Positions 5,902 to 42,014 of a stretch of 44,094 nt of DNA are shown here, one piece after another. Position 1 is the stretch's first letter, and the number at the start of each line of letters is the position of its first letter. The translations under genes were made by a program, and so were the position numbers. The DNA is taken from assembly GCA_903883945.1 (NCBI GenBank), contig CAISCV010000228.1:1-44094 (forward strand), read 5' to 3'. This stretch comes from an uncultured Chitinophagaceae bacterium. GTDB taxonomy: Bacteria; Bacteroidota; Bacteroidia; Chitinophagales; Chitinophagaceae. Below the pieces are notes generated by a model. It was not told where the DNA came from, did not search any database, and saw nothing but the letters and a program-made list of their open reading frames with translations.

Positions 5902-5926
5902 AATAGAGAATAGAGTGATAAAGATC

Positions 5927-6034
5927 ATTAACCACAAAGGACACAAAGATTTTCACGAAGTACACAATGGAAAATGGGTTGAACCATAGTGTTCTTTGTG
6001 TTTCCAACTTAGTGTTCCTTGTGGTAAATAGTTA
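5927..6034. repeat. Intergenic palindrome of ACCACAAAGGACACAAAG type
   Basis: It fills nearly the whole gap between the xanthine dehydrogenase and puuD genes. The left half (5927-5970) reads ATTAACCACAAAGGACACAAAG and the right half (5988-6034) is an imperfect reverse complement, with CTTAGTGTTCCTTGTGGT. The inner arms CACAATGG and CCATAGTG close a loop of about 13 nt. There is no T-run, so it is not a classic terminator. Repeats with this word occur in many unrelated bacterial genomes (recollection, not searched). Confidence 0.75.
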
Positions 6035-6045
6035 AATTAAAGCGT

Positions 6046-7467
6046 ATGATTAGTGGGTTTTTAATAGCAGTATTGTTGGGCATTTTAGTCATGTTAGTCG
6101 CAATGACCTACTATTTGCATACCATCAAGAAGCATCATGTAGAAGAATATGAAATGGAGGGAACGACCGAACAGGAAGCGCAGGTAGAGAAAGTTTCTCT
6201 GATAAGAGGATTCATTTATGTTGCCATCATCTTGACGGTCATCACCATGATTGCTGCCTTATACTTTGGCGTTAAGGGCACCAACTATGAAGGGCATGTA
6301 ATGGAATGGATGAATATTGTGGTTCGTTTGCTGCACATCACTTTTGGCATTGCCTGGATAGGGGCATCTTTCTATTTTGTATTCTTAGAGAATGCCTTGA
6401 ACCGTACAAAAGATGTACGAGAAGAATTGGCTGGTAACCTGTGGGCGGTACATGGAGGCGGTTTCTATTATGTAGAGAAATATAAAGTAGCCCCAAAAGA
6501 GATTCCTAAAGACTTACATTGGTTTAAATACGAAGCCTATTTCACATGGCTATCCGGATTTACGTTGCTGTTTGTGGTGTATTATTTTAATGCATCAGCG
6601 ATGTTGATTGATAAAAATATTCTGGATATCCCTGCTTGGGAAGGTGTATTAATAGGTATTGGCTCTTTTGTGGTTGCGTGGCTTATTTATGCTACCCTTT
6701 GTCGGACTCCCTTGGTAAAGAAAGGAGTCTGGTTTGCTTTGATAGGCTTCTTAATCTGCACAGGCTTTGCTTATTTCTACACTAAAGTATTCAATAGCCG
6801 CGCGGCCTATATCCACTTGGGTGCTATGTTGGGGACATTGATGGTAGGGAACGTATTCTTCATCATTATTCCTGCACAAAAGGCAATGGTAAAAGCTGCT
6901 AAGGAAGGTAAATGGCTCAATCCCGAGTTAGGAAAACATGCGGGATTACGCTCCTTACACAACAACTACTTTACACTTCCCGTTTTGTTTGTGATGATCA
7001 GCAATCACTTCCCAAGTACATTCGGAAATGAACATCCTTGGTTGATTCTGGCTATCATTTCTTTGGGTGCAGCTGGGGTGAAACACTACCTCAACCTAAA
7101 AGAAAAGGGCGTACTCACCTATTGGGTCATGCCGATATCCGTACTGATATTACTATCTGCGGCATACATAAGTTCTCCACAGAAAGAAGGAGAATGCATA
7201 GGAGACGTTAGTTTTGAGGAAGTTAATAAGATTGTTCAAAAGCGATGTGTGGCTTGTCATTCCTCACATCCAACAGATGATGTGTACAAAGCGGCACCCA
7301 ATGGGGTGATGTATGATACCCCCGAGGAGATATTTAAGTTAAAAGATAAGATTATGCAGCGTGTAGTAATTACGAAGACAATGCCACAAAACAATAAGAC
7401 AAATATTACCCAGAAGGAAAGGGATATGATTGGATGCTGGATAACACAGGGGGCTTCACTCAAGTAA
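6046..7467 (+). CDS. puuD: Urate hydroxylase PuuD (membrane, C-terminal cytochrome c)
   Basis: Oxidises urate to 5-hydroxyisourate in the cytoplasmic membrane, passing electrons to a cytochrome c domain instead of O2, so no H2O2 is made. The 473-aa chain has eight or nine hydrophobic helices (about 3-23, 55-75, 90-115, 163-185, 200-217, 228-246, 255-275, 310-345, 355-375). The family signature region at about 93-140 has LLHITFGIAWIGASFYFVFL and NLWAVHGGGFYYVEKYK. A C-terminal c-type heme site CVACH (401-405) follows, with M446 as the likely axial ligand. Length and order match PuuD proteins described from Pseudomonas/Agrobacterium-type clusters. Its place between the xanthine dehydrogenase and allantoin synthase genes fits the pathway order exactly. 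The start ATG at 6046 gives a natural N-terminal helix. Confidence 0.93.
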   Translation: MISGFLIAVLLGILVMLVAMTYYLHTIKKHHVEEYEMEGTTEQEAQVEKVSLIRGFIYVAIILTVITMIAALYFGVKGTNYEGHVMEWMNIVVRLLHITFGIAWIGASFYFVFLENALNRTKDVREELAGNLWAVHGGGFYYVEKYKVAPKEIPKDLHWFKYEAYFTWLSGFTLLFVVYYFNASAMLIDKNILDIPAWEGVLIGIGSFVVAWLIYATLCRTPLVKKGVWFALIGFLICTGFAYFYTKVFNSRAAYIHLGAMLGTLMVGNVFFIIIPAQKAMVKAAKEGKWLNPELGKHAGLRSLHNNYFTLPVLFVMISNHFPSTFGNEHPWLILAIISLGAAGVKHYLNLKEKGVLTYWVMPISVLILLSAAYISSPQKEGECIGDVSFEEVNKIVQKRCVACHSSHPTDDVYKAAPNGVMYDTPEEIFKLKDKIMQRVVITKTMPQNNKTNITQKERDMIGCWITQGASLK

Positions 7468-7471
7468 GGTT

Positions 7472-7538
7472 GTTTTGAATTATTAATTTTGAATTTTAAA
7501 TTAAGACAGTCCTCAATTTAAAATTAAGAATTCAAAAC
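7472..7538. repeat. Intergenic palindrome, TTTTGAATT/AATTCAAAA word
   Basis: The left arm (7472-7502) contains GTTTTGAATTATTAATTTT and the right arm (7515-7538) contains AATTTAAAATTAAGAATTC. They pair over about 22 bp with a small bulge and a loop of about 12 nt. It lies right after the puuD stop codon and 19 bp before the next ATG. There is no downstream T-run. It may act as an mRNA-stabilising or processing hairpin; that is inference. Confidence 0.75.
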
Positions 7539-7556
7539 CTAAAATAACAAAGAAGA

Positions 7557-8423
7557 ATGACACTAACTGATTTTAATAATTTACCCAAAGAAGAAGCGGC
7601 TAAACAATTAATTACTTGCTGCGGCTCGGATAGATGGGTGCAACTGATGTTGACTACATTCCCTTTTGCCGATGAAGTTGATTTAGTAACAAAGGCTGCG
7701 GAAATATGGTATGAGCAATGTACGTATAACGACTGGCTGGAATCATTTACCCATCACCCTAAGATTGGGGATGTGAAAAGTCTGGCTGAGAAGTTTGCGT
7801 CTACCCAGCATTTGGCAGGTAACGAACAAGCAGGTGTAAATGTGGCTACACAAACAGTGTTAGAACAGTTGGCTCAGGCAAATGAGGACTATGCCAATAA
7901 GTTTGGTTTCATCTTTATTGTATGTGCAACAGGTAAATCCGCCAATGAAATGTTGCGTTTATTGTTAGATAGAATCACCAATACGTATCAGGAAGAACTA
8001 GCTGTTGCCATGGGAGAACAACAAAAGATTACTGTCATCAGGCTAAAGAAACTATTGTCAGATGCAGATTGGAGCGGCTTGAAGCCAAGTCATATCACTA
8101 CCCATGTGTTAGATACATCGGTAGGCAAGCCCGGACAGCAAATAACCATCCGTTTGCAAGTATTAGTGAATGATAACTGGCAAACAATAACCCAAGGTGT
8201 TACCAACGCAGATGGACGGATTGGTGATTTGTTGGCTTCGGGCAGGTGGTTGAAACCGGCAAACTATCGGATGTTGTTTGATACGGCTACTTACTATCAG
8301 CAACTAGATACAAAGACTTTCTATCCAGAAGTTCCGATTACATTCACGGTTTTTGATTCGACGCATTACCATGTGCCACTATTGATTAATCCTTTTGGCT
8401 ATTCTACTTACAGGGGGAGTTAG
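7557..8423 (+). CDS. Bifunctional OHCU decarboxylase / 5-hydroxyisourate hydrolase (allantoin synthase)
   Basis: Converts 5-hydroxyisourate to OHCU (C-terminal domain) and OHCU to S-allantoin (N-terminal domain). Residues 1-168 form the decarboxylase, with the catalytic HP pair H67-P68 in HHPKIGD and the N89-E90-Q91 motif. Residues 178-288 form the transthyretin-like hydrolase, with HVLD (H183), NADGR (218-221), H272 in YHVPLL and the diagnostic C-terminal YRGS (285-288). This domain order is the same as in plant allantoin synthase (TTL). The 288-aa length leaves only a short linker (about 169-177) and no peroxisomal-type insertion. Coming directly after puuD, it completes urate to allantoin. 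Both active sites look intact. Confidence 0.95.
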   Translation: MTLTDFNNLPKEEAAKQLITCCGSDRWVQLMLTTFPFADEVDLVTKAAEIWYEQCTYNDWLESFTHHPKIGDVKSLAEKFASTQHLAGNEQAGVNVATQTVLEQLAQANEDYANKFGFIFIVCATGKSANEMLRLLLDRITNTYQEELAVAMGEQQKITVIRLKKLLSDADWSGLKPSHITTHVLDTSVGKPGQQITIRLQVLVNDNWQTITQGVTNADGRIGDLLASGRWLKPANYRMLFDTATYYQQLDTKTFYPEVPITFTVFDSTHYHVPLLINPFGYSTYRGS

Positions 8424-8441
8424 GGGAGAAAGAATAATTAT

Positions 8442-8449
8442 TATATTTG
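8442..8449 (+). promoter_or_regulatory. TATATTTG, Bacteroidota-type -7 box for the toxin-antitoxin pair
   Basis: It matches the Bacteroidota TAnnTTTG consensus and ends 11 bp before the antitoxin ATG, so the transcript would be nearly leaderless. No clear TTG -33 box is seen. It suggests the pair is transcribed independently of the purine genes around it. Confidence 0.4.
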
Positions 8450-8460
8450 AATACTAAAAG

Positions 8461-8664
8461 ATGATTATGAAAGGAGTGAATTTTATTACAAATAGCGACA
8501 ATGAAAAGGTAGCTGTTCAAATTGATTTGAAGCTATTAGAAAAAAGGGATAGCTCTTTGGAAGATTTTATAGATGGCATAATAGCCGAATCGCGTATAAA
8601 TGAAGAAAGAAAACCATTGGACGAGGTAATTAATCAATTGAAAAAAAGAGGAGCGTTAGAATGA
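8461..8664 (+). CDS. Type II antitoxin
   Basis: A 67-aa, highly charged protein (many Glu/Asp/Lys) encoded just upstream of, and overlapping by 4 nt (ATGA), a RelE/ParE-like toxin gene. The N-terminal part, about residues 10-45, could form a strand followed by two helices as in ribbon-helix-helix antitoxins. The helical C-terminus, about 46-67, would wrap the toxin. I do not recognise the exact antitoxin family; the role is inferred from size, charge and gene order. A second in-frame ATG at 8467 is an alternative start. It probably represses its own promoter as a complex with the toxin. Confidence 0.7.
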   Translation: MIMKGVNFITNSDNEKVAVQIDLKLLEKRDSSLEDFIDGIIAESRINEERKPLDEVINQLKKRGALE

Positions 8665-8921
8665 AACGCTTTACAGTTGTATTAACAAAAAGTGCAGAAA
8701 AAGAATTATACAAGCTGCCATTAGAAGTTATCCCTAAGATTGTGTCGGCTTTAAAAGGATTAGAAGAAAATCCTCGCCCCGAAGGATGCAAGAAATTAAA
8801 AGGGTTTAAAAATCTATGGCGTATTAGAATAGGAAACTATAGGGCTATTTATTCTATCGAAGAAATAGTACTGCTGGTTGACGTGAGAGATATAGGAAAT
8901 AGAAAGGACATTTATAATTAA
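8661..8921 (+). CDS. RelE/ParE-family toxin
   Basis: An 86-aa basic protein with the RelE/ParE fold signature: an N-terminal strand (KRFTVVLTKSAEKEL), two helices (about 10-40), the conserved LKGFKNLWRIRIGNYRAIY block (about 47-65), and a closing strand with VDVRDIGNRKDIY (about 73-85). RelE members are usually ribosome-dependent mRNA nucleases and ParE members inhibit gyrase; the sequence alone does not separate them, although the conserved Arg/Lys and C-terminal Tyr lean to RelE. The start overlaps the antitoxin stop by 4 nt. The pair sits between two purine catabolism genes, so it looks like an insertion into the cluster. Confidence 0.85.
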   Translation: MKRFTVVLTKSAEKELYKLPLEVIPKIVSALKGLEENPRPEGCKKLKGFKNLWRIRIGNYRAIYSIEEIVLLVDVRDIGNRKDIYN

Positions 8922-8965
8922 TCTTCCTTTTAAATGTGACAAATAACAGAATTAGAATATAAATT

Positions 8966-10387
8966 ATGACAACAACGATTCCAGCTAGCAAGAAAGAGCA
9001 ATTGTTTGCCAGATTAAAAGAAGCAAACACCGCTTTTCAAGAAATTTATCCGGGAGATAGACCCGATCGTCAACCCGTTCACACTGTTTATGGAGGGGCT
9101 AATTTGTTTAAGGCCGATGCTGCCCATAAAATGGGTATGCGCGCTTATGAAACCTTAATGACGTATGCACCAGATTTTGTAACCTTTGGTAAAGTATTCC
9201 ATTTAGAGGGTATCGATAAAGTAGCAAGTGGTTCTCCTGCAGAAATACAAGAAGCTTATGAAGCACTTTCCCCCGATGAGCAAAAGAAACATCCCGCCCG
9301 TTTGGCGTATGAGGTTTATCAAAAAGTAGGTAAGAAATTGCAGACGGAAGGCATTGAAGATTTCAGGATAGACTTTGAGGATGGTTATGGCAACCGTAGT
9401 AATGAAGAAGAAGATGCTACGGCTGTTGAAGCAGCAATGGAAGTGGCAAAAGGTATGGCTGATAATTCATTGCCGCCTTTTATTGGTATCCGTATAAAGC
9501 CCTTTACCGAGGAGATGAAAGAAAGGGGCTTACGCACACTAGATATCTTTATTTCTACTGTGGTAAAACAATCAGGTGGTAAACTGCCTAATAATTTTGT
9601 GGTGATGCTACCAAAGGTCACTATCCCAGAACAAGTAGTTACGCTGATTGATTTATTCGAGATTCTGGAAGAAGAACTTGGCCTTCCTGCTAATTCCCTG
9701 AAAATGGAGATGATGGTGGAAACCACACAGGCTGTTATGGATGATAAAGGCACCAATCCATTATTCCGATTTATAAAGGCAAGTCGGGGTCGTTGTATCG
9801 CTACCCATTTTGGCACGTATGATTACACGGCTTCTTGTAGCATTACGGCTAAATATCAGGAGATGGATCATCCAGTGTGCGACTTCGCACATCATGTAAC
9901 CAAGGTTGCTTTGGCACATACTGGTATCTGGTTATCAGATGGGGCTACCAACACAATGCCTATTGGACCACACAGAGGAGAATTGACTCCTGCTCAAATG
10001 CAAGAGAATACGGAAATCGTTCACCGTGCTTGGAGAAAAGGATACGACCATATACGCCACTCTTTATGGAATGGATTTTATCAGGGTTGGGATTTGAATC
10101 CTGCGCAGTTACCCATGCGGTATGCAGCTGTTTTCGCTTTCTTCTTAGAAAGCTATGATGATGCAGTGGAACGCTTAAAGACATTCGTAGAGAAAGCAGC
10201 AAGAGCAACTTTAATCGGCGATGTTTTTGATGATGCCGCTACTGGTCAAGGCTTATTGAACTACTTCCTTCGTGCTTTGAACAGTGGTGCTATCACTGAA
10301 GAAGAAGTTTTAAGAACCGGACTTACTATGGAAGAGATACGTGGTCGCTCCTTCAAGAAAATATTAGAGAATAGAAGCGGCAAATAA
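8966..10387 (+). CDS. DUF6986-like, HpcH/HpaI-superfamily aldolase/lyase in the purine cluster
   Basis: A 473-aa soluble protein related to the HpcH/HpaI aldolase, citrate-lyase-beta and malate-synthase barrel superfamily. Recognisable stretches are RIDFEDGYGNRSNEEED (about 134-150), with acidic residues for Mg2+ binding; GIRIKPF (about 174-180), with the substrate-binding Arg; MLPKV (about 213-217); MEMMVETTQA (about 246-255), with the second metal-binding Glu; and CIATHFGTYDYTAS (about 278-291). Proteins of this type have been annotated loosely as aldolase or phosphoenolpyruvate kinase, and to my knowledge no activity is established. Its place in a urate-to-allantoin cluster suggests a purine-derived substrate such as glyoxylate or a ureido acid; that is inference. 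No signal peptide. Confidence 0.75.
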   Translation: MTTTIPASKKEQLFARLKEANTAFQEIYPGDRPDRQPVHTVYGGANLFKADAAHKMGMRAYETLMTYAPDFVTFGKVFHLEGIDKVASGSPAEIQEAYEALSPDEQKKHPARLAYEVYQKVGKKLQTEGIEDFRIDFEDGYGNRSNEEEDATAVEAAMEVAKGMADNSLPPFIGIRIKPFTEEMKERGLRTLDIFISTVVKQSGGKLPNNFVVMLPKVTIPEQVVTLIDLFEILEEELGLPANSLKMEMMVETTQAVMDDKGTNPLFRFIKASRGRCIATHFGTYDYTASCSITAKYQEMDHPVCDFAHHVTKVALAHTGIWLSDGATNTMPIGPHRGELTPAQMQENTEIVHRAWRKGYDHIRHSLWNGFYQGWDLNPAQLPMRYAAVFAFFLESYDDAVERLKTFVEKAARATLIGDVFDDAATGQGLLNYFLRALNSGAITEEEVLRTGLTMEEIRGRSFKKILENRSGK

Positions 10388-10471
10388 AATATGAGTTATG
10401 AAATATGAAATATGCTTCAATCACATATTTCATATTTCATATTTCATATTTATGATTCATAACTCATATTT
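10387..10471. repeat. Intergenic palindrome, (GAAATAT)n / (ATATTTC)n word
   Basis: The left arm, 10387-10414, reads AAATATGAGTTATGAAATATG and onwards. The right arm, 10424-10471, consists of CATATTTCATATTTC repeats ending in CATAACTCATATTT. The element begins at the preceding stop codon and ends six bases before the xdhC start. It could form a long stem of about 28 bp. There is no T-run. Confidence 0.75.
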
Positions 10472-10476
10472 AATAC

Positions 10477-11442
10477 TTGTCTTTATTTCAATTTATACAG
10501 TCCCATCTTTCAAGTAATCGCCCTGTAATGCTGCTGTATGTATTGCAGAGTGAGGGGAGTTCCCCAGGAAGAAGGGGCTTTAATATGGCTGTTGCCGCTG
10601 ATGGAAGCTTTAGTGGCACCATTGGCGGTGGAATCATGGAGTATAAACTGGTAGAGAAAGCTAAGGCTTTACTGGCAAATGGTACGTCCGATACGTCATT
10701 GATGTGGCAACACCACGATAAAAAAAGCAGTGAACAGTCGGGTATGATTTGCTCTGGCAGTCAGCTAAATGCCTTTATCCCACTCACTCCCACACAACTG
10801 CCCATTATCGAAGCCATTGCAGATAGTGAGCGTGATGGCACCAAACAGGTCATTCAAATATCCCCAACTGGCATCTCCGTTTTGTCCGGATTAAATGCCC
10901 ATACACTCCCATTTTTTCAATATGAGTCGGAAACTGAATGGGTCTATCAGGAGTTAATAAACAACCAGCCTGTCATCCACATTATAGGTGGCGGGCATGT
11001 AGGATTAGCTTTAAGTGAAATGATGCACTTCTTAGGATTCTATGTCATTGTTTATGATGACAGATCAGATTTGACTACCCTAAAAGATAATTCATTTGCC
11101 AACGAGAAAAGATTGGTAAACTATAGCACCATTGGTGATTTGTTTACCCACTCAAATGATTACGTTGCAATTATGACGGTAGGCTACCGCACAGATAAGC
11201 TTGTGTTACAACAACTGTTAGACAAAGAGTTCTATTATCTCGGTTTGATGGGTAGTCAGAATAAGGTTAAAACACTCTTTGCTGAACTAGAAGCAGAAGG
11301 GTACAATCCCGCCAGCCTCAACAATATATTTACTCCAATCGGCATTAATATCTACAGCAAAACCACCCGTGAAATTGCAGTTAGCATTGCTGCCGAAATC
11401 ATTCGAGAAAAGAATAAGGATTTACCTACAGGAAGAATCTAA
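10477..11442 (+). CDS. xdhC: XdhC-family xanthine dehydrogenase accessory protein
   Basis: XdhC proteins bind molybdenum cofactor, help sulfurate it and deliver it to xanthine dehydrogenase. The 321-aa chain has the N-terminal XdhC/CoxI domain with GSSPGR (27-32), GGGIME (50-55) and a conserved Cys in MICSG (C92). A C-terminal Rossmann domain carries HIIGGGHVGLAL (about 168-179). An in-frame stop lies just upstream of the TTG at 10477, so this TTG is the earliest possible start and keeps a normal N-terminus. It serves the single-chain xanthine dehydrogenase encoded at the head of the cluster, from which it is separated by four pathway or accessory genes and the toxin-antitoxin pair. Confidence 0.9.
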   Translation: MSLFQFIQSHLSSNRPVMLLYVLQSEGSSPGRRGFNMAVAADGSFSGTIGGGIMEYKLVEKAKALLANGTSDTSLMWQHHDKKSSEQSGMICSGSQLNAFIPLTPTQLPIIEAIADSERDGTKQVIQISPTGISVLSGLNAHTLPFFQYESETEWVYQELINNQPVIHIIGGGHVGLALSEMMHFLGFYVIVYDDRSDLTTLKDNSFANEKRLVNYSTIGDLFTHSNDYVAIMTVGYRTDKLVLQQLLDKEFYYLGLMGSQNKVKTLFAELEAEGYNPASLNNIFTPIGINIYSKTTREIAVSIAAEIIREKNKDLPTGRI

Positions 11443-17885: not shown

Positions 17886-18476
17886 GTGTATCCCATCTCA
17901 AAAGATATCATCGCAAGTATAGAAGGAGGCAATGAGCTATCCTTCCGTACATTCTTTGACTATTACTGGGATCATATTTATTCAGTTGCTTTTGCTTTTA
18001 CTAAGTCAGACGCTCTTTCAGAGGAGATTGTTCAAGAGGTATTTGTGAAAGTATGGTTGAAAAGAACCCAACTCTCTACCGTTACAGATATGGATGCTTG
18101 GTTGTTTATCATCGCTAGAAATCATATACTAAATGTATTGCGTAAGAAATTGAAAGAAGATGCGTTCCTTCAAAATATGGAAGGTTACTTTAGTATTATC
18201 AATGGCTCTCCCGTAGATTTATTATATAAAAAAGAAGCGGAAGCAATAGTAAATAATGCCGTAAATAAACTGCCCCAACAGCAACAGCTCATATATAGCC
18301 TTAGTCGGATTGCAGGACTTTCTCAGGAAGAGATAGCAATAAAACTTAATATTTCTAAGAACACGGTAAAAAGTCACATGAATAAAGCATTGAATGCCAT
18401 TCGGTTGCATTTAGAGTCAAATTCTGTTAGTATTTCCTTCATTTATGCTATATTAACCATATATTCTTCGAAATAA
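17886..18476 (+). CDS. ECF RNA polymerase sigma factor (FecI/RpoE-like)
   Basis: A 196-aa sigma-70 family protein. Region 2 (about 20-90) has SEEIVQEVFVKVW, binding core polymerase and the -10 element. Region 4 (about 130-180) has GLSQEEIAIKLNISKNTVKSHM, a helix-turn-helix for the -35 element. It is the first gene of a sigma / FecR / SusC / SusD series, the usual Bacteroidota layout for an uptake locus that senses its own substrate. The start is a GTG at 17886; no ATG is available before region 2. The C-terminal tail (SVSISFIYAILTIYSSK) is hydrophobic, as often seen in this Bacteroidota sigma group. Confidence 0.93.
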   Translation: MYPISKDIIASIEGGNELSFRTFFDYYWDHIYSVAFAFTKSDALSEEIVQEVFVKVWLKRTQLSTVTDMDAWLFIIARNHILNVLRKKLKEDAFLQNMEGYFSIINGSPVDLLYKKEAEAIVNNAVNKLPQQQQLIYSLSRIAGLSQEEIAIKLNISKNTVKSHMNKALNAIRLHLESNSVSISFIYAILTIYSSK

Positions 18477-18586
18477 TTATTTATTTTCTTCACCACTAAT
18501 ACCTGCTTCCTTTTTTACTGTCTTTAGTAGGGATGGCATATTAATCTATTCTAATGAAGGACTGATAATGGTATCAAAAAACAAAT

Positions 18587-19747
18587 ATGATGGTAGATAA
18601 TCGCTATTTAGAACTGTTGGAAGGTTATACAAACAACACGCTCACCCTGCAAGAGTTGGAAGAGTTGAAAGTATTTTGGAAAACGAATGATACAGAGACC
18701 CTAAATGTTGTTATAGAAAAATCCTTTGACAATCATGCGTTCAACGGGCTATCAGATATTGCAAAAGCCGAGGAAATTTTTAATAGGGTAATGGCCACTG
18801 CAAAACAAGTAGAAAGCTTTGCGGTAAAGAAAAAAAGAGTATGGTTTGCCGCGGCCGCAGTGATTGCTTTTTTTGTAAGTATGGGTGGATTGTATTTGGC
18901 AGTTAGTAGTAAAGCAGCCGCAGATAACGTGGCTACACTTGCACCAAATAAAGACATTCAGCCAGGCAATAATAAAGCGGTTCTTACATTAGCCAACGGA
19001 ACAAAACTGATGTTGAATGATTCTCTTAATGGGATTGTTGCAAAAGAAGGAAGTATTCAATTAGTAAAGAGTGGAGGGGAGTTAAGTTATAGGTCTCTTG
19101 ATAAAGCAACAAACAGTATCAGCTATAATACCATCTGTACGCCGAGAGGGGGTATGTATGAGTTGGTATTGGCAGATGGTACAAAGGTTTGGTTGGATGC
19201 TGCTAGTTCCTTGAAATATCCTGCTTCATTTGTAGGGAATGAACGTAAAGTGGAATTGACTGGAGAAGCTTATTTTGAAGTAGCCCACAATAAGAACATG
19301 CCTTTTAGGGTAATAGCCAATCAAATGACAGTTGAAGTATTGGGTACGCATTTTAATATAAATGCTTACACAGAAGAAGCTGCTGCCAAAACAACACTCA
19401 TAGAAGGGGCTGTTAAAGTATCTGCCAACAATGCTACAGAAATATTGACTCCGGGTAAAATGGCGAGCTATAAAAATGCGTCTATTACCGTCGCTGATGC
19501 CAATATTGAGGAAGAATTAGCCTGGAAGAATGGATATTTTATATTTAATAAGGCAGGCATTGCGACTATTATGAGGCAACTTTCTCGTTGGTATGATGTA
19601 GAGGTTAGCTACGAAGGAACGGTGCCCCAAAATGAATTTGTAGGACAGATCAAAAGAGAGGAGACATTGGTAGGGGCATTGAAAATATTAGAATTAAGTG
19701 GTATGCACTTTAGAATTGAAGGAAGAAAAGTAATAGTGTTGGAATAA
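18587..19747 (+). CDS. FecR-family anti-sigma factor
   Basis: A 386-aa single-pass inner-membrane protein. A cytoplasmic anti-sigma segment (1 to about 84) is followed by a transmembrane helix (about 85-106), the periplasmic FecR domain (about 183-280: PRGGMYELVLADGTKVWLDA, then VELTGEAYFEVAH) and a C-terminal DUF4974-like domain (about 315-386). It should hold the upstream sigma factor inactive until the STN domain of the SusC protein signals substrate binding. The start is the first of two adjacent ATGs. The 110-bp gap to the sigma gene has no terminator. Confidence 0.93.
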   Translation: MMVDNRYLELLEGYTNNTLTLQELEELKVFWKTNDTETLNVVIEKSFDNHAFNGLSDIAKAEEIFNRVMATAKQVESFAVKKKRVWFAAAAVIAFFVSMGGLYLAVSSKAAADNVATLAPNKDIQPGNNKAVLTLANGTKLMLNDSLNGIVAKEGSIQLVKSGGELSYRSLDKATNSISYNTICTPRGGMYELVLADGTKVWLDAASSLKYPASFVGNERKVELTGEAYFEVAHNKNMPFRVIANQMTVEVLGTHFNINAYTEEAAAKTTLIEGAVKVSANNATEILTPGKMASYKNASITVADANIEEELAWKNGYFIFNKAGIATIMRQLSRWYDVEVSYEGTVPQNEFVGQIKREETLVGALKILELSGMHFRIEGRKVIVLE

Positions 19748-19777
19748 GGTTTTTATCATCGTAATAAATAGGTAAGG

Positions 19778-19984
19778 ATGCAATTACTACAACCTTCTTG
19801 GTTTCTTGGGTTGATTATGTGGGGATTAATTATAAATTATACCTGTATCATGTATGTAATGTGTCGTTTAGCATTTGGGAGAAAAAAAATTGGGTTTAAG
19901 AATAATGTCTTATTGTTAATTATTTTTTGGCTGATTCCATTTACTGTATTCGGTTATTTATATAAACTAAGGGCAAAGAGGTAA
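19778..19984 (+). CDS. Small two-helix membrane protein between the anti-sigma and receptor genes
   Basis: 68 aa, with hydrophobic helices at about 8-30 and 45-62 separated by a basic loop (RLAFGRKKIGFKN) and ending in a basic tail (YKLRAKR). By the positive-inside rule, loop and tail charges compete, so topology is unclear. It resembles the small PLDc_N-like membrane proteins of Bacteroidota, but no family can be claimed. The position, 30 bp after the anti-sigma gene and 49 bp before the SusC gene on the same strand, implies co-transcription. A role in the sigma/anti-sigma signal is speculative. Confidence 0.6.
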   Translation: MQLLQPSWFLGLIMWGLIINYTCIMYVMCRLAFGRKKIGFKNNVLLLIIFWLIPFTVFGYLYKLRAKR

Positions 19985-20033
19985 AGGTTTGGAGAATTGA
20001 GTGAAAATAGGCCTTTTTTAATGTGATTTAATT

Positions 20034-23000
20034 ATGCGAATTTTTATTATAGTTTTATTGGTAGTGAGCTTACAGGTATCCGCACGCGCCTTCTCTCAGA
20101 AAATTTCTCTGTCGGTTAAGGATGCACGTATCGAGCGGATATTGGAAGTAATAAAGCAGCAATCTGGCTTCTTATTGTTTTATGATTATGATTTGATTAA
20201 AGAAGTAAAACCATTGACTATCAATATTAAAGATGCTTCTGTTTCTCAATTAATGGATCTGATTGTAAAAGGACAACCTTTTGAGTACACAATTCAAAAC
20301 AATACCATTGTATTAAAGAAGAAACCTTCTTTCTTCGAAACCGTTACAACAAGTTTGTTTAGCGATGAGATTCAAATAAAAGGACATGTTTATAGTGATG
20401 GTGGCGAACCACTACAAGGGGCTTATGTATCGGTAAAAGGAAATAGCAAAAAGATTGCCATCACCAACGCAAATGGAGAATTTACGCTTAGCTTATCCAA
20501 GCAAGAGTCGTTGCAAGGTATCCTTGTATTCTCTTTTGTTGGGTATAATAAATACGAATACAAGGTAAGTGGTCATAAAAGTGTTGATGTAACGCTGGCT
20601 AAAAACATACAATCTCTCGGTGATGTGGTGGTTACCAACAGTTACAGCAAACCTAAAAGAAAAGAAGAGGTTACAGGTAGTATATCCGTGGTAACAGCTA
20701 AAGATTTGCAGGTGGATAGACCTATCGAAAGTTTCGATAAAATGTTGGAAGGTATGGCGGCAGGCGTGCAGGTAGAGACTAATACCGAACTAGGCACCCC
20801 CGTTAAAGTTAATATTCGAGGGCAGAACTCACTTACAAACCTTAATGGTGCAAACATTACGACACTCACTACTTCTTCACAGCCGCTCTATATCATAGAC
20901 GGTGTTCCTGTTATGGAGCAACGCCGTAGTGACGAGCCTTTAGCATTCATTAACAATGAAGAATTACTAAACCCGCTAGCAGGTATAAATCCCTCAGACA
21001 TAGAAAGTATATCTGTTTTAAAGGATGCAGCCGCCGCTTCCATTTATGGGGCTAATGCAAGTAATGGCGTTATCATTATTACCACCAAAAAAGGCAAATC
21101 GGGTAAAACAAAGTTGGACATCGGTTATAGCAACGGTTGGGCGCAAAGCATTAATGGCATAAAATGGTTGAATGGTAAACAATACCATGATTTATTAAGA
21201 GAAGAATACGTGAATGATGGCAAAAGTCCCGCCGATGCGGAACTTTTGGCTGGTTCTAGTACTATGAATACGCCTTGGTTTGAGCTTACAAATCGTTACA
21301 GTACTTTTGATGATGCCGAAATAGAAGTTTCGGGTGGGGGTGAAGCTACACAGTTTAGGTTGTCGGGTTCTTTCTACAATCAACAGGCTATTCAGAAGGG
21401 AAACGATTATCAAAAAATATATCTTCGTGCACGAATAGACCATAAAGTAAATAACCAGTTTTCTTTTGGGCTTAATTTAGCACCTTCTATTACCCACAAG
21501 CATGCAGTAAACATATATGGTGTTGTGCCCATCATACCCAATGTGCCGGTTTATAATGCAGATAGTACATTCTTCTCTTTTGCTAACTTAGGCGTACCCA
21601 ATCCCCTCGCCGTTATCGCACAGAACACCGATTATGCTACAGGTGGATCTTTCAATGCCAATACACACGTTGATTTTACACCCATCAAGAACCTACGCTT
21701 TTCTACTTTGATTGGTATAGATGCATTGCAAAACAAATTAACTTTATTCCAGAGTCCTCAAAATGCAACTGGTGCAAGTAAAGGTGGGTTTGAACAAATT
21801 TTTGATAGAAGCAACTTTAGCTGGATAAGTACTTCACAAGCCAACTGGTCGCCTACGTTTAGGCAAGTGCATAAGTTGGATATAACGGTAGGGTTTGAAG
21901 CAAAAAGTGAGGATACTAAGTTGTTGAGTGGTTCAGGTACAGGGTTTACCTATAGTAAGTTGATAGAACTGAGTACCGCCACCAATCACTTTTCTGCGTC
22001 CTCTAAAGATCTAACCAAATCATATTCAGTTGTAAGCCAGGTGTTGTATAATTATAATAGCAAATACTTCTTTAGTCTTTCAAGCCGACTTGATGCGGCA
22101 AGCATCTTTGGTAAAGATGTAAACTCAACCGTAAACTCTGGGTTCGGGGTTGGATGGTTAATCAACAAAGAAAACCTCTTTCGCCAATACGACTGGTTAG
22201 ATATATTCCGCCTACGGTTTAGTTATGGTCGCACTGGTAACAGCCGCATTGGTAGCTATGCCGCAAGGGGTTTATATAGTTTCGAAACCCAAGGCTACAA
22301 CAATATCGTATCTTCTTATATTTCAACTGCCCCCAATCCATACCTCACTTGGGAAACTGGTTACAAACAAAACATCGGGATAGATATGGGCTTTCTCAAA
22401 CGTTTTAATGTGACGGTAGATATCTATAAAAATACAACAGTAAATGCCATTAATCCCGTAGGAATCCCTTCCGAAAACGGCTTCACCTCCATTTTGGCCA
22501 ATGTGGCCGATTTGAGAAACAAAGGGGTTGATGCAAGTATTTCTGCACAAATATTTACAGGAAAGTTTCGCTGGACAAGTACGCTAAACATTGGGTACAA
22601 CAAAAATATCGTTAGCAAAGTATATAATAAGTCATCTTATTACTCATCTGACCCCTCCATAGCAGCAGTATTAAAGGAAGGAGTAAGTACTTCAGCTGTT
22701 TGGGGCTTTAGGTATGCAGGGGTAGATACTGCAACAGGCTACGAACAATATTATGATCAAAGTGGTAAGGTTGTTTCCTCCAAAAATTTAAATCGGTTGC
22801 CTTCAAATGCCTATTCTTTAGGCGATAGATTGCCTAAAGCACAAGGCGGTTTCATCAATACATTCAGTTATGAAGGTGTCTCCTTAACCGTTAATCTTAT
22901 TTACAACTTCGGTGGATACTTCCTGGCCGATTACAATAACGAAAACAATGGTCGCAACTTATCAAATCGCAACCAGAGTGTAAACTTACTAGACAGATGG

Positions 23001-23321
23001 ACCAAATCGGGAGACATTGCTTCTATCCCAAGGCTTGCCTCTGGCATTTATGGTACAGGCAACCCAATTGTAGCCAACTCTTCTAGGTATGTATATGACA
23101 ATACCTATATCAAACTCAGCAATGTTTCAATTGCTTATGGGGTTCCCAAAAGTATGATGAGAAGGGTAGGAGGAATGACCCTTATGGTGTATGGAAATAT
23201 TACTAACCTTGCCTATTGGTATAAAGAGAAATCACCAGCAGGACGTAATGGTATCAAAGAATATAGGTTCAGTTTCCCAGAGGCACAAACTTTTACTTGG
23301 GGAGTGAAAATAGGAATTTAG
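20034..23321 (+). CDS. SusC/RagA-type TonB-dependent receptor with N-terminal STN domain
   Basis: An outer-membrane transporter of 1095 aa that moves an oligomeric or chelated substrate into the periplasm using TonB. A signal peptide (1 to about 19) is followed by the STN (secretin/TonB N-terminal) signalling domain (about 22-95), which talks to FecR; a carboxypeptidase-like regulatory domain (about 118-190, IKGHVYSDGGEPLQGAYVSV); the TonB plug (about 200-340, with SISVVTAKDLQ and LYIIDGVP); and a long beta-barrel to the end. The STN domain marks it as an inducing receptor controlled by the upstream sigma/anti-sigma pair. The substrate is unknown; no glycoside hydrolase lies nearby. Confidence 0.96.
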   Translation: MRIFIIVLLVVSLQVSARAFSQKISLSVKDARIERILEVIKQQSGFLLFYDYDLIKEVKPLTINIKDASVSQLMDLIVKGQPFEYTIQNNTIVLKKKPSFFETVTTSLFSDEIQIKGHVYSDGGEPLQGAYVSVKGNSKKIAITNANGEFTLSLSKQESLQGILVFSFVGYNKYEYKVSGHKSVDVTLAKNIQSLGDVVVTNSYSKPKRKEEVTGSISVVTAKDLQVDRPIESFDKMLEGMAAGVQVETNTELGTPVKVNIRGQNSLTNLNGANITTLTTSSQPLYIIDGVPVMEQRRSDEPLAFINNEELLNPLAGINPSDIESISVLKDAAAASIYGANASNGVIIITTKKGKSGKTKLDIGYSNGWAQSINGIKWLNGKQYHDLLREEYVNDGKSPADAELLAGSSTMNTPWFELTNRYSTFDDAEIEVSGGGEATQFRLSGSFYNQQAIQKGNDYQKIYLRARIDHKVNNQFSFGLNLAPSITHKHAVNIYGVVPIIPNVPVYNADSTFFSFANLGVPNPLAVIAQNTDYATGGSFNANTHVDFTPIKNLRFSTLIGIDALQNKLTLFQSPQNATGASKGGFEQIFDRSNFSWISTSQANWSPTFRQVHKLDITVGFEAKSEDTKLLSGSGTGFTYSKLIELSTATNHFSASSKDLTKSYSVVSQVLYNYNSKYFFSLSSRLDAASIFGKDVNSTVNSGFGVGWLINKENLFRQYDWLDIFRLRFSYGRTGNSRIGSYAARGLYSFETQGYNNIVSSYISTAPNPYLTWETGYKQNIGIDMGFLKRFNVTVDIYKNTTVNAINPVGIPSENGFTSILANVADLRNKGVDASISAQIFTGKFRWTSTLNIGYNKNIVSKVYNKSSYYSSDPSIAAVLKEGVSTSAVWGFRYAGVDTATGYEQYYDQSGKVVSSKNLNRLPSNAYSLGDRLPKAQGGFINTFSYEGVSLTVNLIYNFGGYFLADYNNENNGRNLSNRNQSVNLLDRWTKSGDIASIPRLASGIYGTGNPIVANSSRYVYDNTYIKLSNVSIAYGVPKSMMRRVGGMTLMVYGNITNLAYWYKEKSPAGRNGIKEYRFSFPEAQTFTWGVKIGI

Positions 23322-23335
23322 AAGGGAAACATTAT

Positions 23336-23400
23336 CCGTTGTACCGGTTACCGCAAACAGCAAACGGTCAACAGTACAACGGTCAAGGGTAAACAAAAGG
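23336..23400. repeat. Intergenic palindrome with CAAACGGTCAACAGT word
   Basis: CCGTTGTAC at 23336-23344 pairs with GTACAACGG at 23374-23382. Within and after the loop ACGGTCAA occurs twice, along with the related CAAACAGCAAACGG. It fills the gap between the SusC and SusD genes. There is no T-run, so readthrough with reduced downstream transcript levels is possible. Confidence 0.6.
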
Positions 23401-23410
23401 AGAAATAACA

Positions 23411-24835
23411 ATGAGACAAAATAAACATATTATCATCTTAAGTTTAATAGCGATAGCACTAAATAGCATGGGCTGCAGGAAATTCTTGGAATCACACTCC
23501 GAGAACAATGTTTCAGTCGCAGAGCTTTTCACAGATTATGAGGGTGCAAGAACCGCAATCATTGGATGCTATAACAAAATGAAAACCTCCGCTTATTATA
23601 CGAAAGACTTTTATGCCTATCCCGAATTAACGGGCGGCAACATAAACTATGCTATCACCAAAGCACCTTCGCTCTATCACAACTACAGTTTTACCAATGT
23701 ATCATTGTCTACCTATAATGACATGTATAATTTTTATACCCAGGCATATTCCGTCATATACAGTGCAAACAATGTTTTAGAAAATGTTGACAATGTTACA
23801 AATGCAAAGGTCACTCAGCTAAACCGTATCAAAGCCGATGCGTATACCATTAGGGCAATGGCGCATTTTGATTTAGTACGTGTATTTGCCCAAGATTATT
23901 CCAATTCGCCTACTGCAAATCATCGTGGTATTGTAATCAAAATAAAAAATACAGATAGTATCGCTTCTTTCAATACATATAGTACGGTAAAACAAGTATA
24001 CGACCAAGTGCTTAGCGACTTAGATACAGCCATTGCTTTGTATGCAGCGAGTGTAGATATTTATCCATCTGGTAGTTCGCAAACTTGGTTAAGTGCCAAT
24101 GCCGCAAATGCGCTAAAGGCAAGGGTATGTTTATATAAAGGAGATTATACGCAAGCGTATAATCTCAGTACCACAATCATTAAAAGTGGAAAGTATCCCT
24201 TGCTGACTACTTCTAATTATGATGCTTCTTGGAGCAAGAAAAATATTAGCTCCGAAAGCATCTTCGAACTAGCTTTTGGTGCGGGTACGGGTGGCGGATA
24301 TGGCGATTATTTCAATTTTACTATTCCTCAAACACTGTATGCACAATTTGCTACCTCCAATGATTTGATAGGGAATGGGGTTTTATTTGATCCTGCCGAT
24401 GTGCGTGGGCATAACTTTCTTTTTAAGGACACAACTATTGCTGGTAGAACCTATTCATTTAGTTCTAAGTATTTTGGTACAGCTGATAGTACCAATAACA
24501 TCAAAGTTATTAGGGCATCTGAGTTGTATTTGATTGCTGCAGAATCAGCTGTGCAATCCGATCCTATAAACGGATTATCAACAGCCGCAACTTACCTAAA
24601 TGCTATCCGCACACGTGCCAACCCCAATGCAACCTACTTTACAGCTGCCTCTAAACAAGCAATGTTAGATGAAATCTTTAATGAACGTCGTAGGGAGTTA
24701 TGTTTCGAAGGGCATTTGTTTTTTGATATAGCTCGAATGCACAGAAATTTGGTAAGGGTAGATTGTAGTAGCAATATCAAAGGTTTCACTTACCCCAATA
24801 CTTTATATGCTTGCCCAATACCAACTTTATATTAA
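23411..24835 (+). CDS. SusD/RagB-family outer-membrane lipoprotein
   Basis: A surface lipoprotein that caps the SusC barrel and binds substrate. The 474-aa chain has a lipoprotein signal with lipobox SMGC (C22). The mature protein starts RKFLESHSENNVS, typical of SusD. The N-terminal region matches the SusD_N style (DYEGARTAIIGCYNKM), and TPR-like helices carry AYTIRAMAHFDLVRVFAQDYS. The C-terminal RagB/SusD signature is LNAIRTRANPNA plus EIFNERRRELCFEGHLFFDIAR. Length is slightly short but complete. The 89-bp gap to the SusC gene is ordinary for the pair. Confidence 0.95.
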   Translation: MRQNKHIIILSLIAIALNSMGCRKFLESHSENNVSVAELFTDYEGARTAIIGCYNKMKTSAYYTKDFYAYPELTGGNINYAITKAPSLYHNYSFTNVSLSTYNDMYNFYTQAYSVIYSANNVLENVDNVTNAKVTQLNRIKADAYTIRAMAHFDLVRVFAQDYSNSPTANHRGIVIKIKNTDSIASFNTYSTVKQVYDQVLSDLDTAIALYAASVDIYPSGSSQTWLSANAANALKARVCLYKGDYTQAYNLSTTIIKSGKYPLLTTSNYDASWSKKNISSESIFELAFGAGTGGGYGDYFNFTIPQTLYAQFATSNDLIGNGVLFDPADVRGHNFLFKDTTIAGRTYSFSSKYFGTADSTNNIKVIRASELYLIAAESAVQSDPINGLSTAATYLNAIRTRANPNATYFTAASKQAMLDEIFNERRRELCFEGHLFFDIARMHRNLVRVDCSSNIKGFTYPNTLYACPIPTLY

Positions 24836-38835: not shown

Positions 38836-39852
38836 CTAAAGAGACCGCAAATACTGGTCTATGTTAGATAAATCAGTGCTTGCCGGGGTTAATTGAATTG
38901 GATTACTTGAGGTTGCAGTAATTTGTTTTGTTGCCCAATAATAAACCCCATCAATTTTAGAAATTGAAACCAAAGTAATAGTAGTATTTATTGGAATTCC
39001 TGATGCACCATAGCTTTTTCCCAAAGGATTAGGCTTTAATCTTACTACTGTTTTAGTATCATTAAATACGGCATAAGTAACCGTATTTTTATTGGTAAAG
39101 TTTATAGGTAGAAAAACATTGATGCGGGTTGTATAGGGAGCAGGTGGAATTGAATTAGCACATCCAAACCAACCTATTTTGTTGGTAGTGATTAAATATC
39201 CATTATTAGGACTGTTGGATGATCCACCACCAATATAAGTAGGCGTTACAGGACCATGGCTAACAAGAGGAAGCCAAACTGTATCTTTTCCCGTAGTGTC
39301 TGGTTGAAACATAAAGTATTGCATAGGTACTGTTGGATAATGATCTTTAGTCCTAACCTTAAATTGAATTTGTTTCTGTAAAGCAGCATTCCAATAAACA
39401 GGGTTGCCCTTGTACGACAATTTAATATTTACATAAGCCCCAAAGTTTAGTAAGGTTCCATTACTAGTTGTTTGAACTTTGTGTCTTATTACATCTCCTT
39501 TTGAAGTTAATACCAATATATTGGCTTTAACTTTTGCAGACTTTGCTGTAATTGTTGTAGAAGGTTTATTTTGTGTGGTCATACACCCACCTGAAGGAAA
39601 AGTAATAGTTACAGAGTCACCAATGGAAATTTTACTTGCGTCATCACTACTGATGCAGTTAAAGCTATCGGTTATAACTGGTTTGTCTAAGTTTGCAGTA
39701 ATGGGAACAATTGTATCATTTGTAAACCATGTAGTATCATCTTGTTGTAAAGGGGGATTGGGCACAAAGTCTCCAACTGCGGTTTTGTTGCAACTAGCTA
39801 TTGCTAATGCCAAAAACGTTAATATGGAAATGTTTGTGAAAAATCTTTTCAT
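38836..39852 (-). CDS. Lipoprotein of the sigma / anti-sigma-barrel locus, unknown family
   Basis: 338 aa. Lipoprotein signal with lipobox IASC (C21), then a Thr/Pro-rich stretch of about 45 residues and a beta-rich body. Two central Cys (C66 in FNCISSDD and C94 in GGCMTT) may form a disulfide. No recognised domain. The gene follows the anti-sigma-barrel gene by 21 bp on the same strand and is the third gene of that series. It may be a surface or periplasmic partner of the barrel or simply a target of the same sigma factor; neither is shown by sequence. Confidence 0.75.
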   Translation of the reverse strand: MKRFFTNISILTFLALAIASCNKTAVGDFVPNPPLQQDDTTWFTNDTIVPITANLDKPVITDSFNCISSDDASKISIGDSVTITFPSGGCMTTQNKPSTTITAKSAKVKANILVLTSKGDVIRHKVQTTSNGTLLNFGAYVNIKLSYKGNPVYWNAALQKQIQFKVRTKDHYPTVPMQYFMFQPDTTGKDTVWLPLVSHGPVTPTYIGGGSSNSPNNGYLITTNKIGWFGCANSIPPAPYTTRINVFLPINFTNKNTVTYAVFNDTKTVVRLKPNPLGKSYGASGIPINTTITLVSISKIDGVYYWATKQITATSSNPIQLTPASTDLSNIDQYLRSL

Positions 39853-39873
39853 AATCTATCTGATACTCTTTCG

Positions 39874-41304
39874 TTATAATTTGATGCTTGAGCGTGGAAT
39901 TTTATATCTAATTCCAAAGTTTATTCCTAAACTATTAAAACGTTGGCTGAACCCAAATGAAGTATTGCTGCTGTTGGAAAGGCCATATTTACAATATGGT
40001 TCTGCAAATGCATCAAAACTATTTCCTATGTCGTACAAGAAGCTTACGCCTCCATATAAACTCAAATTAATTGCGCTTTTCAATACACCATTTTGTTCCT
40101 TGGCACTCAATGGGGCTGTATTTAAGTTATTGTCAAACGTTTTGCCTTCATAGAAGGACGCTATATTGGCAATGATACCTCCATTTGCAGCAAAATGCCA
40201 CTTGTTGTTGCCCGCTTCCCAACTAGCAATAACCGGAATTTCAATACTTTTATTCGTATTGTAACTAGTCATAAGTCTGTATCCTGTTTGAATAAAAGTA
40301 CTGGTGTCTTTTATTGAAATGGTTGCACCATCATTATTAATGTAAGACCTTTCAGTTACTACAGTACTGTTTTTTGTATCAAACTGTTTGTACCTGAAAC
40401 GTTCGTTTATTTGATTGAACTGAATACCACTTTTTAATAAAAGATGATTGGTCAGGTTTTTGGCAATACGAATGCCAACAGTAAATCCGGCAGATAGTTT
40501 TTGAGCAGTATCTAGTGCCTGGGTATAAAAATAATTTGAGCTAGAAATACCTACTTTCTTGCTGCTATACTCTGGGGAGGCATATAATTCCACAAACCAG
40601 TTCTTGGTTGTATTATTGGGTAATGTGATGGTTGTTATTGTATTCTTACTGTCATTAAGGGTTTTAGTTACATAATTGTCTGTGGGTAAATTCCATGATT
40701 TTAATACAATATTACCCCTTTCGAACTTTTGGTTTTCATTCTCACTTTCATTAAGTAGGCGTCTATTGTTTTTATTTGTAGTAAAAGTATTTATTCTTTC
40801 AGATTGGCTGATTACAAAGGAATTATCAGCTAGAAGCTGGGCATTACCTTTATCAGCAGTAGTTGCATTATACATCTTGAGTTTAGTCTCTTGGGCATTA
40901 GACTTGTGCGTACAAACTGAATGAATTGTATTTGTTTTACTATCATTATTTTTCGTCTCAACAGTTGTAAAATCGGATCTATTTTCCTTTGTTTTAGTAA
41001 TGACACCCGTAGCACTACCCGTAGCATTTTTGTTGAGTATAGCTAGTTTAATCAATGGAGATAATTCTTTTATTTTTATTGCATTTTCACCCGTAGACTT
41101 GTTGGTATAGAAATAAGCAGAACCAATTATACCAACAGTAATTATTGCAAGAATTGTGGATTGGAAATAACCATTCTTCCAAAAAGGAAGAGGAGCAGGC
41201 TTTTTCTTGTCTTTTTCAGGTACTATACGTTCCCAAAGACCAGCAGGAACTGGGCTTTCGTGATTGTATAAGTTATCTTTTATGTATTTGTCAAATTCTT
41301 GCAT
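39874..41304 (-). CDS. Anti-sigma-like membrane protein fused to an outer-membrane beta-barrel
   Basis: 476 aa with an unusual layout. A short cytoplasmic N-terminus (1-45) has the ESPVPAGLWERI motif common in Bacteroidota anti-sigma-type proteins. A single transmembrane helix (about 48-66) follows, then a long Asn/Thr/Lys-rich linker (67 to about 234) that could cross the periplasm. The C-terminal domain (about 235-470) has amphipathic strands ending GINFGIRYKI, like a small porin/PorT-type outer-membrane barrel. There is no signal peptide other than the helix. The ATG overlaps the stop of the sigma gene by 1 nt (TAATG), so both are made together. I infer that it senses envelope state and holds the sigma factor. 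An alternative is a periplasmic beta-domain rather than a true barrel. Confidence 0.7.
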   Translation of the reverse strand: MQEFDKYIKDNLYNHESPVPAGLWERIVPEKDKKKPAPLPFWKNGYFQSTILAIITVGIIGSAYFYTNKSTGENAIKIKELSPLIKLAILNKNATGSATGVITKTKENRSDFTTVETKNNDSKTNTIHSVCTHKSNAQETKLKMYNATTADKGNAQLLADNSFVISQSERINTFTTNKNNRRLLNESENENQKFERGNIVLKSWNLPTDNYVTKTLNDSKNTITTITLPNNTTKNWFVELYASPEYSSKKVGISSSNYFYTQALDTAQKLSAGFTVGIRIAKNLTNHLLLKSGIQFNQINERFRYKQFDTKNSTVVTERSYINNDGATISIKDTSTFIQTGYRLMTSYNTNKSIEIPVIASWEAGNNKWHFAANGGIIANIASFYEGKTFDNNLNTAPLSAKEQNGVLKSAINLSLYGGVSFLYDIGNSFDAFAEPYCKYGLSNSSNTSFGFSQRFNSLGINFGIRYKIPRSSIKL

Positions 41305-41867
41305 TAAACGGCAATTTTTTCTAGTTTAATAATCTGGTTCTGAAGCATTCTTCGAGCTTTTACAAGTTGACTTCTACTAGTGCTAGCTTCTATTCCTAAC
41401 ATAACCGCAATTTCTTCGTGACTATATCCTTCAATGACATTGAGGTTAAAAACAATTCGATAACCATCAGGAAGATTGCTAATCAATTTCAATAAATCAT
41501 CTTCAGAGAGGTTACCATAGATGTAAGGTTGTATATGAAGTTCGGAAGCACTCTCTCCGTCAATGTCTTTAAATGGTAGTTTTCTTTTCTGAATATATTT
41601 CAAGCAAACATTAACTACTATACGTCTCATCCAACCTTCAAAAGATCCTTCGAATTTAAATTGGTGGAGGTTACTGAATATTCTAACAAAGCCTTCTTGC
41701 AACATATCTTCTGCCTCCATCGAATCTATTGAGTAGCGTAAGCACACACTCATGAATTTACCCGCATATTGCTCAAAAAGCATACGTTGGGTATGAGGGT
41801 TCTGCTCAATGCAACCTTTTATAAGTTCGTACTCAGACAAAAGATATAATTGTTTTACAATGCTCAC
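41304..41867 (-). CDS. ECF RNA polymerase sigma factor
   Basis: A 187-aa sigma-70 family protein. Region 2 (about 25-95) includes EAEDMLQEGFVRIF (51-64) and FEGWMRRIVVN. Region 4 (about 125-180) includes GYSHEEIAVMLGIEASTSRSQLVKAR, a helix-turn-helix. It belongs to the RpoE-like Bacteroidota group usually encoded with a single-pass regulator instead of FecR. Its stop overlaps the ATG of the anti-sigma-barrel gene by 1 nt. No FecR or SusC is linked, so it is distinct from the first sigma gene of the window. Upstream (41880-41990) is AT-rich with a short (TAA)n run. Confidence 0.93.
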   Translation of the reverse strand: MSIVKQLYLLSEYELIKGCIEQNPHTQRMLFEQYAGKFMSVCLRYSIDSMEAEDMLQEGFVRIFSNLHQFKFEGSFEGWMRRIVVNVCLKYIQKRKLPFKDIDGESASELHIQPYIYGNLSEDDLLKLISNLPDGYRIVFNLNVIEGYSHEEIAVMLGIEASTSRSQLVKARRMLQNQIIKLEKIAV

Positions 41868-42014
41868 AAATAAGTTGATACATGACTTATTCGATTTGCT
41901 GCTTTAATAATAATAATAATAATCGGTATAAAAGTATATAGTAAATTTCAGAGGGAACGATTTCGTTCTAAATTTCTACTTTTTATAACTTTGTTAAGTT
42001 GATATTTGTTGAAA

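Follow-up and report, generated by a model that had tools for sequence, protein, structure and literature searches.

A putative Dma-like anti-sigma protein with a predicted outer-membrane barrel, encoded in overlap with an ECF sigma factor gene and associated with a conserved candidate promoter dyad in Chitinophagaceae

The 476-aa protein encoded directly downstream of an ECF sigma factor gene in an uncultured Chitinophagaceae bacterium is a member of the known Dma kind, in which an anti-sigma N-terminus, a transmembrane helix, a long disordered tether, and a C-terminal barrel are joined in one polypeptide. Its locus lies within a 44,094-nucleotide stretch of DNA (assembly GCA_903883945.1, contig CAISCV010000228.1), which was analysed as a whole and is referred to here as the window. 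We consider it highly probable that this protein acts as an envelope-spanning anti-sigma factor with a barrel sensor and that its partner sigma factor controls a regulon marked by a conserved promoter dyad. The Dma design has been studied in gut Bacteroidales and is here extended to a lineage whose likely promoter is recognizable in the sequence itself. Beyond the known architecture, we add the pairing with a sigma gene at every intact locus read, the promoter dyad with its candidate outputs, and a tandem arrangement of the N-terminal segment in some relatives.

Results

The sigma and Dma-like genes overlap at the head of a three-gene operon

The genes of interest are arranged on the minus strand in the order ECF sigma factor gene, 476-aa gene, and lipoprotein gene, with 21 bases separating the last two (Table 1). 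The lipoprotein gene, which is the third gene of the operon, was missing from the listing of an earlier sequence-only reading of this DNA. The first ORF matches sigma-70 region 2 (E 1.4e-14) and region 4 (E 7.5e-14) in Pfam, and in NCBIfam the listed sigma subfamily models all scored below their cut-offs, such that the superfamily alone passed. A single base is common to the TAA stop of the sigma gene and the ATG of the 476-aa gene; ORFs, sequence, and sigma-70 matches thus all agree with the TAATG overlap that the sequence-only reading had described. Among the 103 related ORFs that follow a sigma ORF, 60 likewise overlap its stop, by 1 or 4 bases, and the overlap of the two genes thus exceeds what would be expected by chance.

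Table 1. Features of the sigma/Dma-like operon and their positions in the window
Feature	Position	Strand	Basis
Gene of the 187-aa ECF sigma factor, starting with GTG	41304..41867	-	ORF call, Pfam/NCBIfam; GTG co-positioned in 10/10 aligned same-genus loci
TAATG, shared by the sigma stop and the Dma-like start	41302..41306	-	Sequence
Dma-like anti-sigma/outer-membrane-barrel gene, 476 aa, ATG start	39874..41304	-	ORF, relatives, AlphaFold2 model, structure matches
N-terminal segment, putative sigma-binding, residues 1-45, single copy	41170..41304	-	Alignment of relatives, model, segment profile
Inner-membrane helix, residues 46-71	41092..41169	-	Hydropathy, AlphaFold2
Disordered periplasmic tether, residues 72-231	40612..41091	-	pLDDT <50; S, T, N, Q, K, E, D, G, and P make up 66%
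Predicted outer-membrane beta-barrel, residues 232-469	39898..40611	-	Model, structure matches; PF13568 in 9/24 relatives
Third operon gene, encoding a 338-aa surface-type lipoprotein with lipobox Cys 21	38836..39852	-	ORF, relatives, model
Predicted sigma-gene promoter, AGCAGCA-N15-GTATCA, 8 nt before GTG	41876..41903	-	Same-genus alignment, matrix
Predicted lipoprotein-gene promoter, AGCATCA-N15-GTATCA, 8 nt before ATG	39861..39888	-	Matrix

The 476-aa protein is predicted to combine an inner-membrane helix, a disordered tether, and a barrel

On its own, the 476-aa protein gave no match in Pfam or NCBIfam at E 0.01. A FecR domain was not found in it, the sole Pfam match up to E 1 being DUF5820 at E 0.17, and a profile of the Dma-like proteins searched against the sequences of solved structures returned one chance-like match (E 0.099). 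Nine of 24 aligned relatives matched OMP_b-brl_2 (PF13568), which the window protein itself does not. An AlphaFold2 model built from these 24 aligned relatives placed helices at residues 2-12, 23-33, and 46-71, the last of which is the single inner-membrane helix that had been proposed earlier and that hydropathy also indicates. Residues 1-45 were modeled with pLDDT 53-71 by block, residues 70-231 were without structure (pLDDT <50), and the strands at residues 236-469 reached pLDDT 73-97 in ten-residue blocks. Structure prediction had been set beforehand as one of the tests that could overturn the proposed reading; it returned a barrel and no soluble domain. Foldseek matches of the barrel model reached E values down to 1.3e-7, and the comparison with solved structures was topped by a designed barrel (Z 18.5), followed by OprF (17.9), OmpA (17.1), NspA (16.8), and OmpW (16.0). 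The last barrel strand carries N-F-G-I-R-Y-K-I, which we take to fit the beta-signal of BAM substrates. With a helix, a disordered stretch, and a barrel all predicted, the chain has the parts that would be needed to reach from the cytoplasm to the outer membrane.

The linker proposed by the sequence-only reading is present, although its length in the window protein is ~160 rather than about 168 residues, the latter figure being the median among close relatives. The disordered stretch is also where a different fate of the protein has to be weighed: proteolysis after export may part an inner-membrane anti-sigma factor from an outer-membrane barrel, in which case the resting cell would have two proteins in place of one envelope-spanning chain. 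A disordered stretch of ~160 residues would be open to periplasmic proteases, yet a tether is present in all 79 close loci measured (an estimated 116-286 residues, median 168) even though its sequence is hardly conserved, and Reo of Phocaeicola vulgatus is described as spanning from the cytoplasm to the surface (PMC13114119). We regard separation of the two ends by cleavage as quite unlikely and favor an intact chain that would span both membranes.

A sigma gene adjoins the Dma-like gene throughout its relatives

A search with the single sequence at E 0.001 found a match in 25 of 99 genomes, including the window's own. With a profile at E 1e-5, counting partial matches, 229 of 394 family genomes and 220 of 395 class genomes were matched; this profile search also yielded the class-level relatives that share the layout. 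Gene neighborhoods were read for part of the matched genomes. At the family level, removal of repeats and of one FecR-like ORF (L002, found at E 0.00175 and excluded from the segment, promoter, and overlap counts) left 104 loci, and at 103 of them the Dma-like ORF directly follows an ECF sigma ORF. The one exception is a broken copy represented by its 3' half, and the matching 5' half does have the sigma ORF. At the class level, the sigma ORF was directly upstream in 49 of 49 loci (48 by script and L138 by inspection), a count that includes four repeat genomes of the earlier family set (L122-L125) as well as one protein of 228 aa (L170) whose match covers the N-terminal part and in which the barrel was not seen. 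Thus, the co-occurrence with a sigma factor that had been put forward for a homolog search holds at every intact locus that was read.

A long frame in L138 was considered as a natural sigma-Dma fusion and was ruled out, as the sigma factor of this locus has an ORF of its own, overlapping in a different frame. It should be noted that the Dma-like gene of two relatives (L081 and L100) is split over two frames, apparently as a result of broken copies or draft-genome sequencing errors. In an order-level relative (L022), a xanthine-dehydrogenase-like gene, named by eye, lies downstream of the Dma-like gene, which may be a coincidence. Elsewhere in the window, at positions 2182-11442, is what we take to be a purine breakdown cluster comprising a xanthine dehydrogenase, an OHCU decarboxylase/HIU hydrolase-like fusion, and an XdhC-like protein, together with a presumed lyase-like protein of 473 aa (8966-10387).

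The segment preceding the helix is conserved and repeated in some relatives

Among the aligned relatives, the pattern FDxxIxDKLxxxESPVPxGLWxKI is conserved ahead of the helix. Copies of this segment were counted with a profile, because a strict text pattern missed many of them, even in single-copy proteins. In the 81 close loci, there were 64 proteins with one copy, eight with two, one with three, five with four, one with five, and two with none. The two proteins lacking a segment are broken pieces, leaving 79 loci, the window's own included, of which 15 encode more than one copy of the ~31-residue segment (L012, L016, L018, L044, L046, L048, L052, L057, L058, L061, L075, L076, L083, L084, and L086). 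The window protein has a single copy. All copies sit between the start codon adjoining the sigma stop and the transmembrane helix, always before the helix, and retain the FD...L...PVP..LW..I pattern to varying degrees; some are weak, such as the third copies of L075 and L076 (E 0.0005-0.0007). When mapped onto a tree of the barrels from these 79 loci, the repeat trait requires at least seven changes, three of them forced by the starred branches, although this is a quick tree with several long branches. Two segments were also seen by eye in four class-level relatives (L138, L139, L149, and L156).

These segments bear upon whether the protein engages the sigma factor at all. It could merely be a co-expressed outer-membrane protein whose helix serves for export or anchoring and whose N-terminus does not bind sigma, with the sigma factor being regulated in some other way. 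The low pLDDT of the N-terminus would be compatible with this. Conversely, the short segment ahead of the helix is conserved, in contrast to the tether, and in 15 of 79 close loci it is repeated two to five times, never beyond the helix. Because an export signal would not need repeated segments, this explanation is disfavored; furthermore, in published relatives, loss of the protein activates the sigma regulon (PMC9308784, PMC13088901). In our view, a protein that is simply co-expressed is very improbable, and the N-terminal segment is best viewed as a putative sigma-binding element.

A more speculative extension is that the anti-sigma factor is multivalent in some relatives. Two to five segments may allow one outer-membrane sensor to hold several sigma molecules and release them together, in which case copy number would act as an evolving dial for threshold and burst size and the window protein would represent the one-copy state. 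We offer this as a tentative proposal that could well be wrong. If each copy does bind sigma, an envelope stress response would here have its stoichiometry set in an unusual way. The anti-sigma factor FpvR reportedly serves two sigma factors, and a search of the open-access literature found no paper on tandem anti-sigma segments of this kind.

A predicted promoter dyad precedes the sigma gene in most close relatives

Alignment of the sigma upstream regions from ten same-genus loci revealed a GCAGCA-like box, 15 variable bases, and a GTATCA-like box just before the start, for which the consensus is RGCARCR-N15-GYATCW. Sites with no more than two mismatches occurred in 56 of 80 close loci, with a spacing of 15 in 52 of the 56, compared to ~4 per set of shuffled regions. 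A matrix built on 66 sigma-upstream sites, drawn from the same set of close loci that it subsequently scored, reached a score ≥14 in 67 of 77 close loci. None of 800 shuffled regions scored as high (3 reached 10), nor did any of 80 opposite strands. The dyad was therefore missing at score 14 in 10 of the 77 close relatives and at score 10 in seven. Three of the 23 loci below the cut for close relatives also reached 14 (L022, L026, and L081), two of which are a cut (L026) and a broken (L081) close relative; the remaining 20, including L102-L117 and L119-L121, scored <10. Both dyads of the window end 8 bases before a start codon, which would imply very short leaders or none, and the distance is often greater at other loci.

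Across the 4.09-Mb genome, the exact dyad of the window's sigma gene has a single occurrence, the one in front of this gene. In eight same-genus genomes, the degenerate boxes matched 22-34 times per genome versus 0-11 times for the reversed pattern. The boxes alone are unspecific, as 8 of 20 selected matches (12 of the 20 from the window's own genome) sit inside other frames. Candidate targets in this genome include a 218-aa protein with a signal-like N-terminus (L236; site 99 nt upstream) and a 738-aa protein (L234; 87 nt). As the dyad stands at the sigma gene's own promoter, we assign it to this sigma factor, which would then be expected to use RGCARCR-N15-GYATCW sites.

The lipoprotein gene has its own dyad

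A lipoprotein gene adjoins the Dma-like gene in 67 of the 81 close loci; in three, the contig was too short, and 11 have room for the gene but no match. The sites at these lipoprotein genes were not used to train the matrix and hence provide an independent test, in which a dyad scoring ≥10 was present at 63 of 67 loci (missing at four) versus 6 of 134 same-length control stretches. Relative to the Dma stop, all 63 lie between positions -23 and +10, often over the last Dma-like codons, and the predicted lipoprotein promoter of the window likewise begins within the last codons of the Dma-like gene.

The lipoprotein itself belongs to a family without a Pfam name. A model based upon 16 aligned relatives is beta-rich (mean pLDDT 81.4), and Foldseek found no match for it at E 0.001. 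Comparison with structures (VIA) yielded nothing convincing; the two best matches, both at Z 8.0 and possibly reflecting just a common arrangement, were a ZU5 tandem (model residues 56-237, rmsd 3.8, 129 aligned) and the Ig-like part of a protease (residues 239-325, rmsd 2.2, 81 aligned). Its profile matched nothing among the sequences of solved structures up to E 1. A NigD identity was also considered and rejected, as NigD, under what we presume to be its Pfam domain names, is absent from the four Pfam families matched over 16 of 16 members at E 0.1.

Being encoded in the operon and kept alongside it in 67 of the 81 close loci, the lipoprotein might instead be a part of the sensor, either as a ligand of the barrel or as a brake, and not an output. 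We consider this unlikely: the separate copy of the dyad at 63 of 67 loci is what would be expected of an output, the 11 close loci with room for the gene have no lipoprotein match, and NigD surface lipoproteins are among the outputs described for P. vulgatus (PMC13114119). Thus, we favor the lipoprotein as a candidate output of the sigma factor.

A giant Ig-repeat protein is a further candidate target

In the window's own genome, a dyad at G000:C285:13156-13183 (L231, L273) precedes the gene of a secreted Ig-repeat protein, and two more dyads precede homologs of this gene in another genome (G008). The Ig-repeat protein of G008 is 2940 aa long and contains Big_2 in eight stretches as well as PKD, with a tail for type IX sorting (TIGR04183, 25.9 bits with a cut-off of 23); the copy in the window's genome runs past the end of its contig. 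A search with the N-terminus of the Ig-repeat protein gave 22 matches, which come from 10 of the 13 genus members. Upstream of these, 11 scored ≥10.8 and 10 of the 11 scored ≥14, a level reached by 0 of 440 shuffles. The 11 with a dyad, among them the homologs L252-L257, L259, and L261-L263, account for 11 of the 14 matches with E <1e-20, the misses being L258, L264, and L267. The eight weaker matches, most of which lack the N-terminus, have no dyad. Because 3 of the 11 dyads had led us to this protein, 8 of the 11 sites are new. In total, the dyad is found before an Ig-repeat gene in 8 of 13 same-genus genomes.

Discussion

A model for envelope signaling through a single protein

We propose that the N-terminal segment of the 476-aa protein would retain the sigma factor on the cytoplasmic side of the inner membrane, with one helix crossing this membrane and the ~160 disordered residues crossing the periplasm. 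The C-terminal barrel would sit in the outer membrane and read its condition, such that a disturbance of the outer membrane may free the sigma factor to transcribe from RGCARCR-N15-GYATCW promoters. The first target would be its own operon, creating positive feedback together with the production of extra anti-sigma as a simultaneous brake. The second would be the downstream surface lipoprotein, expressed from a second promoter, and the third would probably be one or more of the giant secreted Ig-repeat proteins. The occurrence of the dyad before the sigma, lipoprotein, and giant surface protein genes constitutes a ready-made regulon hypothesis.

Comparison with known systems

In FecR-SusC/FecA cell-surface signaling, an outer-membrane barrel communicates with an inner-membrane anti-sigma factor and, in turn, with an ECF sigma factor. 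The window protein would form the same chain, but the parts are separate proteins in the FecR systems and one protein here, and the latter is without a FecR domain. A likely FecR-type sigma/anti-sigma pair followed by SusC/SusD-like genes, as named from sequence, also occurs in the window at 17886-24835 (signaling set 17886-23321). The sequence-only reading had proposed a shorter route than FecR plus SusC. This idea was right yet already known, because the layout is of the kind published for Dma1/Dma2 and Reo (PMC13088901, PMC9308784, PMC13114119).

Dma1/Das1 and Dma2/Das2 of Bacteroides thetaiotaomicron are described as having an anti-sigma N-terminus, a transmembrane helix, a long disordered tether, and a C-terminal barrel, and as being encoded beside a sigma gene (PMC13088901). 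By layout, the window protein is predicted to be alike in all of these respects. The sigma factors of the Dma family belong to ECF21. Loss of Dma2 is reported there to raise expression of its own operon as well as vesicle formation (PMC13088901). Both Dma2 and the window protein are encoded in three-gene operons; however, the neighbors of Dma2 are DUF4943 and DUF4858 proteins, whereas the third gene in the window encodes the unnamed lipoprotein family with its own dyad. The EcfO/Reo systems of P. vulgatus and B. fragilis similarly comprise an ECF sigma factor followed by a large anti-sigma factor with an outer-membrane barrel. The P. vulgatus barrel anti-sigma factor, Reo, is described as likely sensing outer-membrane stress (PMC9308784, PMC13114119), and its system has NigD surface lipoproteins among its outputs, whereas the window operon has no NigD match in Pfam and belongs to another bacterial family.
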